Source: Misgurnus anguillicaudatus
Lineage: Eukaryota; Chordata; Actinopteri; Cypriniformes; Cobitidae
Direction of reading: 5' to 3'
Assembly: GCF_027580225.2 (NCBI RefSeq)
Contig: NC_073356.2
Span: forward strand, 7,347,001 to 7,411,000
DNA length: 64,000 nucleotides
Shown here: positions 18,075 through 52,270 of the stretch, piece after piece
Layout of the letters: each line of letters opens with the position of its first letter
How positions within the stretch are numbered: position 1 is the first letter of the stretch
Notes under the pieces: generated by a model
What the model was told of the DNA's origin: nothing
Database searches by the model: none
Seen by the model: only the letters and a program-made list of their open reading frames with translations
Translations under genes and position numbers: made by a program

Positions 18075-19464
18075 CAACTCAGTATCATCGAAATGACGTA
18101 CCGATAGTCACGTAAATTTGTGAGTCTTTTTCGTGACACTGACACGTTTTTTTCACCTTTTGCGTAAACATGTCATGCATTTCTGTTTATGTGTCAGTGT
18201 CACGTATTTGTTTCTCGACTGTTTTGTCCTTTTCTTACCATTGTCGCTTCGGTTTAGGGTTAGATTTACATAAAATCCAACACATTCTCACCTCCCAAGG
18301 CGTCAAAATCTGAAGCACGCTCAAACGCCCTCAGTGTCAGTATGAACGCTGAAGGCGTTTAGCGCAGCGCTGAAGGCATTTAGCGCAGCGCTGTAGGCGC
18401 GATTCCGCCTCATTTGCGTGTCTAGTTCACACGCCTTCAGCGTCAGTATGAAGACGTGAAGGGTGCCCCTATGCGTCACTATATCGACAAAATGGGAACT
18501 CCGTTGCTTTCATGCTAATCCCTCAGCGTCGGATATAGACGAAAGGGAATCCCGGAAGTTGATGGCGTCACGTTATGCGACGATCGGCAGGATCATGCCG
18601 CTTCTGGACGGTAACTACTCAATTTTTTTCCAATTTTTAAACCATTGTCGCTTGGGGTTGGGGTTAGACTTGGGGTTTGGATGTCAGTTTGTTTATACTT
18701 TTTGTCTTCTGATTTTTAAGCCACTGTTGTTTAGGGTTAGAGTTCGGGTTTGGGTTAGGATGTCTGTATTGGTTTATACTTTTTGTCTTCTGATTTTTAA
18801 ACCATTGTCGCTTGGGGTTAGGGTTAGAGTTGATGTTTGGGTTAGGGTGTAATTTTATGTAACAGAAAGTCATTCTAACTCAACCCCAAGCGACGATGGT
18901 AAAAAATTTGGAACAAAAATTGAGTAGTTACCGTCCAGAAGCAGCATGATCCTGCCGATCGTCGCATAACGTGACGCCATCACCTTCCGGGATTCCCTTT
19001 CGTCTATATCCGACGCTGAGGGATTAGCATGAAAGCAACAGAGTTCCCATTTCGTCGATATAGTGACGCATAGGGGCACCCTTTGCGTCTTCATACTGAC
19101 GCTGAAGGCGTTTGAACATGCTTCAGATTTTGACGCCTTGGGGAGTGAGAATGGTAAAATGACATCCTTACCCAAACCCAACTCTAACCCTAAAATCATA
19201 AAATATAAATAATAAATCATGAAAAAAAGGTATAAACCAATACTTAAAGTGACTTCCTAACGCAAACACCAAATCTAACCCTAAACCGAAGCATCAATGG
19301 TTTGAAAATAGGACAAAACAGTTGAGTAACAAATACGTGACAGTGCCACGTAAACAGAAATGCGTGACATGTTCATGCAAAAAGGCAGAAAAACATGTCA
19401 ATGTCACGGAAAAGACTAACAAATTTATGTGACTATAGGTACATAATTTTGTGATACAGGTTTG
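18075..19464. mobile_element. Foldback element F1 with 7-bp TSD, hosting F2
   Basis: It is flanked by gaacatt on both sides (18068-18074 and 19465-19471). Its ends are CAACTCAGTATCATCG and, inverted, CAAACCTGTATCACAA. The arms contain short imperfect palindromes at 18131-18147, 18162-18178 and 18189-18205, each 17 bp (for example TCGTG-N7-CACGT). An 18-19 bp version starts at 18096. The inner core has CTTCGGTTTAGGGTTAGATT at 18247-18266 and its mirror near 19273-19291. No protein is encoded. F2 (18278-19153) sits in the core. Confidence 0.85.
18278..19153. mobile_element. Foldback element F2 inserted in F1
   Basis: The left end CAACACATTCTCACCTCCC faces GGGGAGTGAGAATG at the right. The F1 core sequence resumes on each side (ACATAAAAT / GTAAAATGACATCC), so F2 entered F1. 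The arms are nearly identical mirrors over about 170 bp (18463-18632 versus 18903-19085), with only about four differences. Palindromic units with a GCGTC/GACG stem lie at 18440-18456, 18473-18489 and 18526-18542, with an 18-bp one near 18565. The left arm has an extra ~100 bp (about 18340-18435) of GCGTTTAGCGC sequence absent from the right arm. The core is made of GGGTTAG/GGGTTGG motifs. Confidence 0.85.
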
Positions 19465-19488
19465 GAACATTAGGCCATGACTGCCCCC

Positions 19489-20093
19489 ACATCTGGAAAC
19501 CATGGCTGCTTTGAATGACCAAGGACGGCCTAAGAGGCCATATGACCGACACGTATAGCAACCAATAACGTTTCTCATGTTTAGAGGCATGGAAATTTCA
19601 CCACATTAACAGGCCGGCGTGCAACCATTATTCACGTCTGTAAAGTTTATAACAACAATACAAAACAAATTAAAGCATGCTTTTAAACATGATGAAGCAT
19701 ATTGTAAACACGACGGCTTTCTTCTTCGATCAGATGACTTTGTGTTTCCAGGCGGACCGTTAAAGATCTCCCAGAAATCCTGTGAAATTCAACCAATTAG
19801 GGGACAACTTTGAATCGGCTAAAGTATTTCAAGTAAAGAGTGGCGTATGCATCTGAAGTTCAGCCAACAAGTCTGTGGGCGTGCCATCTGAGGCTGACAC
19901 TAGCACAACTTTAGTTTCTTCAGGGAGAGAGACAGACAGACCAGAAGACTTACATGCAGGCTGATCAACAGACAGACAAGCAGACAGACGGTTGTTGGTT
20001 CCTAGCCGGTAATGCTCTATTGATTTGTTCTATGAAAGTGGCCTTCCAGCATCTTAAGACTTGAGACCACTGATCAATCTGTCCACAACGCGC
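19489..20093. other. Intronic DNA, no recognised gene
   Basis: A small GACA-rich patch lies at 19925-19990. Nothing else is recognised. Confidence 0.35.
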
Positions 20094-49050: not shown

Positions 49051-50376
49051 CACTATCTTTGTAAAAAAATGCTTTGGAAAAATCATTTTGTGTGCTTTTT
49101 ACTGAATACATTTTTTTTAATTGACCATTAAACCCTTTGATCTAATGCTGGTGCTGAGCGCTGAAAATGCAAACTTTACATGTAATTAATGATCAGGCAG
49201 TAACTGATAGCCGTCTGATCCTATGACATAATATAGACATCAGATTGACAGTACTCAAGCCTAATTGTGCTATAGGGGCCTGTATATATCACATTTTAGG
49301 GTGGCTGTGCCCAGGTTGGACCAGGATAGACAAATATTTTTGTTTCAAGGCCCACATCAGATTTTGAAATACATACCGCATACTATGTGAACGACAAATT
49401 TAGCTTTAGTTATTCCAAATCAACACTCAATTATTAATGTAGACACATTCATCTTTACCCTGCTTTAAAGAACACATATAAAACTGTCCTACTGCTCTCA
49501 CTGTGCATATCATATTTACAGATCTAAAGTAAACATCACAATTAAAGTAATATATTTAGCATAGTAAGACACAACTCTCATTTCATATCCACTCTGAGAC
49601 ATATTTACAGTTATATTTACTTTATTTTTGTAGTAGCCATGAATAATTACCATTTGTATTACCATAGCTTTACTACAAATAAAATACCATTGTTATTATG
49701 GTGAGAGCATAGTAAATTTGTGGTTAAAAAACTCTTAAAAAACTGGAATATATTTGGGCAAATCACACATATAAACTTTTGTCTGATGCTGGTGAAATAT
49801 TTTGTTATCCATTTTGTGTTAAACACGTGACATTAAAAGTTTATTTTTTATGTTGTTGCAGTGCTAATTTTTTTCAGTCAATATACGCGCTTTTTGGTGC
49901 CCCCTGCAGCTGGTTGCGCCCTAGGCATCCATCTAGTTCGCCTATGCCTAGAAACAGCCCTGGGTAAATGTCATATTATGCAACTATGCATTACTCTACA
50001 GAGAGCTGTACAGGCTACGTTCTGCCTTAAGAACAAATTTGGTGCAACTGAATAAGATAGAGAGTTGGTTATAAACTAACTAGTGGTTACTAAGCCTCTT
50101 GCGTGGACTATAAGAACGAACTTATAAATTGTCAGTGCATCTCGTTCCCATTTGAGGGCAAATGACTTCTAACATACTGAAACGCAGTGTGAGTCAAAGA
50201 AAATCGATTTGTTTCTTGTACTTTTGATTTCAGTGTTATCTGTTTTGCTGAACATGTGTGTTTGTCTCAGCAGGTCACACAATTGATGCTACAAATGGCG
50301 TAGAGTTGTGTATAAGTGTGCAATTTGGGTAAAATTGCATTATAAAGACTGAGGGGAATGTTTAAGCAGAACTTAA
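49051..50376. other. Intronic DNA, nothing firm
   Basis: A patch at 49895-49965 (TTGCGCCCTAGGCATCC) resembles decayed repeat ends. No exon is supported. Confidence 0.3.
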
Positions 50377-51446
50377 CGCAATAGTTCACCTCCAAAAATT
50401 AAAATGAACCCATATTTTACTCAAGCCATCCCAGGTGTATATGACTTTCTTTTTTTAGCCAAATATAATTGAAGTTATTAAACAAAATCATGGCTCCTTT
50501 GAGCAATATAATGGCATTGGATAGTGCCCCATTTTTAAAGCTGGGTAAGTACAAATTTATGTTTCAAACTTTGTGAAACTACAATGGTGCACTCTTAGAA
50601 AGGATGTGTTATTTTTTTACACAACATTGTGCAGGAAGCTTTTAACACATTATATGTCATTTTGTGTTGATTTTGTGTTAAAATGAAACACAAAATGGGT
50701 TGTTTCAATAATAACACAGAGATGGCTGGATTCTGGGACAACACGTTTATTATAACTAATAACTGTATGAATTAGTTTTTGATGAATAAATATGCTTTTT
50801 AGGAGCCATAAATACCACTATAAAACATTAAACAGTCAGGATATTATTTCATATAACTCTGACTGTTTTTGACTGAAAGAATAAAGTTCAAGTAAAGAAT
50901 ACTTCAATTGGCCCAAACTTAAAATTTACATTTCATTTTATTTAATATTTAAGTACACGATACATAAAACTACTGTTTTCCATAAGGACTGTTTACCACA
51001 TATATTTTTTGTATACTGTACTTAAAATTTTAAACAGTTATTGTTTATACAGTATGATTAAAGCAACTTATAATCGACCCACAGCTTAAGCACAGGCACC
51101 ACACATCTGAACAAAGGTAACAAAAAAGACAGGGTTCCCACGGGTCCTTGAAATCCTTGAAAGTTTGTGAATCCGGGATAAATAATTCAAGGCCCTGGAA
51201 AGGTTTTGAAAATATACATGCATAGATACAGGTCATTGAAAGTGCTTGAATCTATTTAATGCAAGAAGTTTTCTGGAAAAAATCCATATTATTCTCTGTG
51301 TAGTGTAGGATATTATCATAAAAATTCTAGACTTTTAAGCACACGTGCTAAACTGTTCGCTTTAAATGTTTATATCTTCTGTATGAGAAAGTTGATTCAT
51401 ACCAAAATTATTTTTTGCATAGTTGTGTTTGGCACATGAAAACATC

Positions 51447-52270
51447 TCGGGTTACGTATGTAACCTACCCGTTCTCACCAAGATGCGTACAAATGACACG
51501 CAGTGTCATTATCGTGCAATAGATACGCCAAATTCCGATTTTGCGTGCATATGATACGCCAGTCCTTCCCATTCACTTATATGGCGAATCGTTTCGTGAC
51601 GTTTTATTTATTGTTTTCTCATTTGTTTTCTGTTTTTTTTACCATTTTCGCTTGGGTTTAGGGTTAGATTTCACATTTGTTTAAGCAGGTTATTTAATAT
51701 ACAGGTTTCTCTATGTTTTTATCTATATTTAAGCCATGGTCGCTTGGAGTTGGGGTTAGAGATGGGGTTTGGGTTAGGATGTCTTTTTTATATAACAAAA
51801 AGTTGTTCTAACCCTAAACCCAAGCGAAAATGGTAAAAAAAACAGAAAACAAATGAGAAAACAATAAATAAAACGACACGAAACGATTCGCCATATAAGT
51901 GAATGGGAAGGACTGGCGTATCATATGCACGCAAAATCGGAATTTGCGTATCTATTGCACGATAATGATTTGTACGCTTTTTGGTGAGAATGGGTTGATG
52001 TAACTGTTGTTCCATGAGAAGGGAACGAGACGCTGCGTCTCCCTTGCCATATTTCCTGCGTCCCTGTAACGCTGTCTTTGGCAATATTTCAGATAGCAAT
52101 ATACTTCCTGGCTCCCGCGTCACCCTGTCTTTGCCGTTAAGCCTCACCATTGGTTAAATTTGATATACACATTCAGACGCACTTACCCCTGGAGGCGTCC
52201 ACAAAGTGTCACCGCAACGACGCAGCGCGAGTTCCCTCGAAAGGGAACTGTAACAATGTATCTTAAAAGG
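51447..52270. mobile_element. Inner element with GGGTTACGTATGTAAC left part, split by F5
   Basis: The sequence before F5 (CGGGTTACGTATGTAAC) and after it (TTCCATGAGAAGGGAACGAG...CGCTGCGTCTCCC; mirror GACGCAGCGCGAG...GAAAGGGAAC) forms a repeat type I recognise from cyprinids. The boundaries are approximate. Confidence 0.5.
51465..51997. mobile_element. Foldback element F5 with 7-bp TSD
   Basis: Flanked by atgtaac on both sides (51458-51464 and 51998-52004). The ends are CTACCCGTTCTCACC and, inverted, CAACCCATTCTCACC. The left arm has 17-bp units at 51485, 51512 and 51543 with a GCGTR/YACGC stem (one begins TCGTG). Right-arm partners are at 51916 and 51946; the third has lost 12 bp. The core has TTCGCTTGGGTTTAGGGTTA at 51647-51666 and its mirror near 51811-51829. 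Confidence 0.92.

Follow-up and report, generated by a model that had tools for sequence, protein, structure and literature searches.

Five foldback elements, designated F1 to F5, lie in a 64,000-nucleotide stretch of the Misgurnus anguillicaudatus genome (contig NC_073356.2, positions 7,347,001 to 7,411,000; hereafter the window, with coordinates counted from its first base), and their arms are built from repeats of a short palindromic unit. An initial annotation held that the stem of this unit is specific to each element, unit after unit and arm after arm carrying the same letters, and that something must homogenize the units. The locus raises the question of what could change several copies of a site together within one element. 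Our analysis narrows this question to a single letter, the outer pair of a 17-bp dyad, and above all to F3, in which all eight units agree. We propose, with a probability of roughly 50%, that F1 to F5 form a foldback family whose dyads are bound by a sequence-specific dimer, and that the F3 array was switched together by selection.

F1 (18075-19464, forward strand), with arms that are 85% identical in self-comparison, is interrupted by F2 (18278-19154, forward strand). F3 (22835-23363, reverse strand) lies in the orientation opposite to that of F1 and F4 and has arms that are 94-95% identical, F4 lies at 45570-46078 on the forward strand, and F5 (51465-51997, with no strand assigned) has arms that are 99% identical. 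The arms of F2 and F4 align in two pieces each, at 94% and 91% and at 92% and 88%, respectively. The tips CAAC...TCAC and the core ACCATTGTCGCTTCGGTTTAGGGTTAGA are common to all five elements, the right tip of F2 being about 4 bases short. Exact 7-bp target-site duplications flank F1 (GAACATT), F3 (ACAAAAA), F4 (AATATTT), and F5 (ATGTAAC), and F2 has an imperfect 6-bp duplication (TAAAAT); random pairs of 7-mers lying 400-1500 bp apart in the window are identical at a frequency of 1.45e-4. Like foldback elements and miniature inverted-repeat transposable elements, these elements have terminal inverted repeats that cover much of their length and, in four of them, a target duplication of fixed length. 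The longest stop-to-stop frame overlapping any of them, in F2, is 130 amino acids long, in keeping with elements that encode no transposase, and this frame, the only element frame scanned, had no Pfam match at an E value of 0.01. F1 to F5 are thus genuine insertions, all from a single family of non-autonomous foldback DNA transposons, and the exact ends, the flanks, and the core scan described below bear out the initial annotation in recognizing five elements with CAAC-type ends and a common core. At the site where F1 carries TTTACATAAAATC, then F2, then TAAAATGACA, F3 and F4 carry an unbroken TTTACATAAAATGACA. Because F3 and F4 are unbroken at this matching place, it is F2 that inserted into F1, which makes F1 the earlier of this pair; F1 is the oldest foldback element.

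A scan of the window for the core at up to 7 mismatches returned 11 matches, all 11 within the five elements. They include the left-arm copies of F1 (18237-18264), F3 (22998-23025), F4 (45720-45747), and F5 (51641-51668, 2 mismatches), all on the forward strand, and the right-arm copies of F3 (23173-23200, 1 mismatch) and F4 (45914-45941) on the reverse strand; the right copy of F2 carries an indel and was missed at this threshold. The core is far better conserved than the arms in F1, F3, and F4. Within the core of F1, F3, F4, and F5 is the string TTAGGGTTAG, which resembles the vertebrate telomere repeat, and the core string GGTTTAGGGTTAGATTT had no match in the papers searched. The left arm of F2 has about 110 bp with no counterpart in its right arm, within which (at 18347-18399) a 21-bp sequence is repeated in tandem 2.5 times. 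A lone F3-type tip, CAACATGATCTCAC, lies at 29278-29299; its best inverted partners up to position 36000 have 3 mismatches in 14.

The arms hold a 17-bp dyad of the form X-CGTG-N7-CACG-X', in which CGTG/CACG is common to F1, F3, F4, and F5. In the left arm of F3, the four units occupy 22855-22871, 22890-22906, 22921-22937, and 22948-22964 on the forward strand, and counted from the tip the units of both F3 arms start at bases 21, 56, 87, and 114. The corresponding left-arm starts are 57, 88, and 115 in F1, whose first unit, 18 bp long, starts at 22; 21, 46, 77, and 101 in F4; and 21, 48, and 79 in F5. The first unit thus begins at base 21-22 in the left arms of all four elements, and the step from unit 2 to unit 3 is 31 bp in these arms and in the right arms of F1 and F3 (30 bp in the right arm of F5). 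Half-units have been lost in one arm only, namely half of unit 2 in the right arm of F4 and half of unit 1 in the right arm of F5, and apart from this unit geometry the F5 arm aligns poorly with the others. The geometry was assessed by a spectrum of CGT-Nk-ACG spacings, which replaced counts of motif-free hairpins. CGT-N9-ACG occurs 20 times in the 64 kb, 17 times inside the elements (about 3.0 kb) and 3 times outside (2536, 21748, and 31080). When one arm per element was taken, the count was 9 (four in F3 left, three in F5 left, one each in F1 left and F2 right, and no exact match in F4 left, whose units have right halves CGCGC and match only with one mismatch) versus an average of 0.14 when single bases were shuffled, and none of 1,000 shuffles attained 9 at any of 25 spacings; the remaining arms gave 8, and the elements being related, these counts are not independent. 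The repeated 17-bp unit noted initially therefore exceeds chance. When 5-bp stems enclosing 7-bp loops were counted without regard to motif, with 4 of 5 pairs required, the counts fell within the shuffle range in 8 of 10 arms, and since such stems are unenriched, the signal resides in the motif and not in hairpins as such.

The inner four pairs of the dyad are nearly constant in sequence, whereas the outer pair changes yet remains mostly symmetric. We aligned 24 of the 30 unit places of F1, F3, F4, and F5, setting aside F2, unit 1 of both F1 arms (18 bp), unit 4 of both F4 arms, and the two half-deleted units, and this gave 20 distinct rows. Among these, pair 1:17 is GC in nine, CG in six, AT in two, and of other composition in three; it is the only pair that has changed on both sides, and pairs 2 to 5 never did so. 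Paired cells amounted to 93.0% versus 85.8% after shuffling (0 of 500 shuffles as high), the covariation score was 0.333 versus 0.218 (0 of 500), and 8 cells were changed on both sides versus 3.5 (3 of 500), the rows being related so that none of these figures is a probability. The same outer letter is found in both half-sites of 22 of 28 unit-arms (F1, 6/8; F3, 8/8; F4, 5/7; F5, 3/5). The "code" of an element is one letter, the outer pair 1:17. Of the conserved geometry with a replaceable code that had been suggested for the family, the geometry is retained for F1, F3, F4, and F5, the code shrinks to this letter, and F2 does not fit.

A table of half-site letters, read by hand (the left letter of F4 unit 4 adjoins a 2-bp gap), showed how far this letter is in step within each element. 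X is C in 16 of 16 half-sites of F3 (units CCGTG/CACGG, with a single right half CACAG), G in 11 of 15 in F4 (units 1 to 3, GCGTG/C[A or G]CGC), and G in 9 of 11 in F5 (GCGTR/YACGC), while F1 has A in 10 of 16, G in 4, and T and C in one each. Uniformity of the stem within an element accordingly holds fully for F3 and mostly for F4 and F5, but not for F1, each arm of which mixes A and G units. Specificity of the stem to each element does not hold: F4 and F5 share GCGTG, F5 departs from it by A:C and G:T mismatches, and it is one letter that differs. In both arms of F1, units 1 and 4 are A:T and unit 3 is G:C, and the F1 founder therefore probably carried mixed outer letters from the start. By manual typing of the half-sites, CpG persists at 10 of 16 in F1 and at 15 of 16 in F3, and part of the looseness of F1 within the stem is CpG decay.

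Exact permutation of the elements within each unit place gave P = 0.0035 (12/3456) for the four elements and 2/216 for F1, F3, and F4. The outer letters of F3 differ from those of F1 in 30 of 32 arm comparisons and from those of F4 in 24 of 24 (94-100%). Divergence of F3 from F1 and F4 elsewhere is 0.31 and 0.37 in the spacers, 0.40 and 0.36 in the terminal 18 bases, 0.16 and 0.16 in the inner stems, 0.39 and 0.59 in the loops, and 0.05 and 0.02 in the core. The MAFFT alignment misplaces the right half of F4 unit 1, giving an F1-F4 outer-letter divergence of 0.33 where hand anchoring gives 0.60 (18/30), but the F3 contrast is alike by both methods (F3-F1, 30/32 each; F3-F4, 24/24 and 30/30); the other hand-anchored differences are 2/20 for F4-F5 and 12/22 for F1-F5. 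Across the units of F3, likeness covers the stems and extends one or two bases beyond them. Likeness of the loops between units is 0.48 in F3, 0.42 in F1, and 0.52 in F4, and since the F3 loops are no more alike than those of F1 and F4, the stems changed together and the loops kept their unit identity. These values weaken conversion between units, one of the causes first suggested. Another, an origin of every subfamily in a single seed palindrome, does not fit F1, F3, and F4, because the spacers of one element, along with several of its loops, can be aligned with those of another, unit for unit.

Agreement between the two arms of an element, which had also been noted from the start, was confirmed. 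In F1, F3, and F4, 38 of 46 informative ungapped columns unite both arms of an element, and none of the 46 shows a full arm-against-arm split, with column 7 separating the arms in just two elements, F1 and F4. Each arm has its own sequence immediately inward of the core, and before the core CTTACC (F1 left, F3 right, F4 left) and CAAACC (F1 right, F3 left, F4 right) are arm-specific across elements; these columns sat in a gapped stretch outside the 46-column count. The element-specific arms and the arm marks at the core together indicate that the arms were made alike in each lineage, outward of a point adjacent to the core. Copying from arm to arm through the foldback would be the simplest cause, and repair of one arm on another has been proposed for Galileo in the passages of PMC3573991 that treat it.

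These observations can be brought together as follows. F1 to F5 would be copies of a non-autonomous foldback family with 7-bp duplications, presumably moved by cut-and-paste as is usual for the class. An array of X-CGTG-N7-CACG-X' dyads lies in each arm, in near-fixed register from the tip (as seen in F1, F3, F4, and F5), and these dyads are putative sites of a dimeric sequence-specific protein, most plausibly a transposase acting in trans. The four inner pairs may form a constant recognition core, and the outer letter would be a specificity position, matching in both half-sites, as its covariation suggests. In the F3 lineage the whole array would have passed to X = C, sites that mismatched the protein in use being selected against, and F1, more speculatively, might show such a passage still incomplete, with a G unit among A units. 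The pattern of alike arms would reflect foldback copying, in which one arm is repaired or replicated on the other as far as the vicinity of the core. A stronger form of the proposal, in which recognition works through the one outer letter, switched array-wide (to C in F3 and, incompletely, to A in F1), and the subfamilies are orthogonal to each other's transposase, seems to us doubtful.

Judged from the sequences, selection for a matching set of sites is our preferred cause of F3 uniformity, with short-patch copying of the stems as its main rival. Such copying, by hairpin-mediated template switching or conversion in the course of replication or repair, would have spread one stem over the F3 units with no selection, an account that is possible if rather unlikely. 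The bases flanking the F3 stems also agree (TT precedes in 8 of 8 cases and A follows in 8 of 8), unit 2 of one F3 arm matches unit 4 of the other at 91% over 23 bp, and the gains and losses confined to one arm (the F2 left 21-bp tandem repeat and the half-unit losses of F4 and F5) show slippage; the retained identity of the loops counts against it, and tracts of about 7 bp, recurring at 8 half-sites per arm, strike us as short for conversion. Ordinary descent, with point-mutation divergence and F3 uniform by luck, is improbable. F1, F4, and F5 do share unit-specific letters, as expected under plain descent, unit 3 being G:C in all, the left letter of unit 2 being T in F1 left and in F5, and the right letter of unit 4 being T in F1 and F4. 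Of the 8 outer positions, however, F3 and F1 disagree at 7 or all 8, and disagreement at no fewer than 7 has P = 0.0016-0.005 at background divergence, 0.009-0.019 when each dyad is counted once, and 0.0003-0.0007 when agreement of the derived letter is also required; moreover, the F3 outer changes are all transversions except that of the unit 2 left letter.

Single-strand folding gave z scores of -7.0 and -5.9 for F3, -3.6 and -3.7 for F1, -2.2 and -2.3 for F5, -0.06 and -1.45 for F4, and -1.4 for the F2 stretch, and the F4 values rule out hairpin strength as a conserved feature. A function of the hairpins themselves, through structure-specific recognition or cruciform extrusion, is highly improbable: the dyads do persist while the outer pair covaries, and the F3 and F1 arms, and to some extent those of F5, fold better than shuffles, but the inner CGTG/CACG is nearly constant in sequence, the F4 arms and F2 stretch fold no better than many shuffles, and motif-free stems are unenriched in most arms. 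The weak folding of F4, together with an inner sequence that is constant, an outer letter that is variable yet symmetric, and a tip distance that is nearly fixed, therefore favors a sequence-reading dimer over a hairpin.

Several results weigh against a selective switch of the F3 array. No transposase was found in the elements, the longest overlapping frame being the 130-residue frame of F2. Short-patch conversion of the stems could yield the same F3 pattern, and a sample of five elements from one window cannot decide between it and selection. When F3 is left out, the same permutation gives 12/72 (P = 0.17), which is not significant and which favors descent with chance; homogenization of the units is thus seen in F3, whose units are in step, and is not general. 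The 8 rows changed on both sides at pair 1:17 are a small base (6 from F3 and 2 from F1), and neither the number of pairs changed on both sides (1 versus 1.3) nor that of further pair types (6 versus 7.1) exceeds shuffles. Units off the majority letter occur in F4 (unit 4, T/A, which is degraded, with right half CACGT or CAGGT) and F5 (unit 2, left T, with left half TCGTG), and F1 is mixed. F2 lies outside the shared geometry, with neither the 17-bp spacing nor symmetric outer letters: the stem GCGTC/GACG first assigned to it is uniform in its left half-sites (GCGTC, 5/5 in each arm), but the right half-sites vary (GACGC, GACGT, GACGA, or GACGG), as does the spacing, with loops of 7-9 bp.

Should the outer letter prove to act as a specificity switch, a large set of genomic copies would record a transposase and eight sites per element changing recognition together, and the joint change of transposase and site recognition is an open question for mobile DNA. 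The palindromes of bacterial REP/BIME families and their associated transposase coevolve. Any likeness to these is in the way they work only, as families of palindromic units with an associated transposase in another domain of life, going by the relevant passages of PMC2817692. Foldback elements with repeated sites in their arms are an already known class. Galileo, a Drosophila element of the P superfamily, resembles F1 to F5, as far as the sources consulted describe it, in its long arms, its mostly 7-bp duplications, and its coexisting subfamilies (PMC4168063), in the exchange proposed between arms and copies (PMC3573991), and in having multiple transposase sites in its arms with cross-binding limited by subfamily, a precedent for the reading proposed here: its THAP domain binds several sites in the long terminal inverted repeats, and the domain of the G subfamily fails to bind the repeat of the N subfamily (PMC3688188). 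It differs in its insect host, its longer arms, and its direct tandem repeats, as those passages describe them, where the present elements have 17-bp dyads. The duplications of F1, F3, F4, and F5 fall within the 7 or 8 bp given for the P superfamily in the part of PMC4168063 concerned, and GAACATT, ACAAAAA, AATATTT, and ATGTAAC, four sites only, do not match the Galileo target motif GTANTAC.

Among fish elements, Angel of zebrafish is similar by description only, as a high-copy DNA element with long inverted repeats; the passages of PMC3636048 describing it make no mention of unit arrays. Compensatory arm substitutions in two Angel copies within long noncoding RNAs are ascribed there to RNA selection (PMC3636048). 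Since the arms of F1 to F5 are alike within each element, agreement of arms alone is no sign of function, and paired arm changes such as those in Angel could come from copying. Pdre2, a P-like DNA transposon of zebrafish, likewise has inverted repeats at both terminal and subterminal positions, but its 8-bp duplication and terminal inverted repeat CATACCTGTCAAC, as given in the relevant passages of PMC10983969, are not those of F1 to F5, with their CAAC...TCAC tips, and the elements do not match it. Nor do they match Dada, which by the account in the passages of PMC3706591 lacks terminal inverted repeats and lies in multicopy small RNA genes, whereas F1 to F5 carry long ones. The window had no Rfam match at the gathering score and no tRNA by ARAGORN (bacterial code), and a small-RNA reading of the elements was dropped for lack of an Rfam match. 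Further copies were found neither by core patterns in viral contigs or GTDB genome contigs nor by blastn of F3 against plasmids and of F4 against phages, and among 859 candidates for spurious proteins compared with five translated arm stretches, none matched at an E value of ≤0.01.

The window contains other repeats. A foldback pair of about 1 kb each (15777-16731 and 30306-31310), alike by eye, belongs to another family and is not of the F1 to F5 type. A small foldback of the AACGGTGCTATATAGCACC type was seen by eye at 48250-48555. At 57526-58752 lies a Tc1-like element bounded by inverted repeats of 62 bp, which along with CA repeats gives the window, by eye, the look of fish DNA; its open frame at 57796-58344 matches HTH_Tnp_Tc3_2 with an E value of 7.8e-7, just under the Pfam cutoff.

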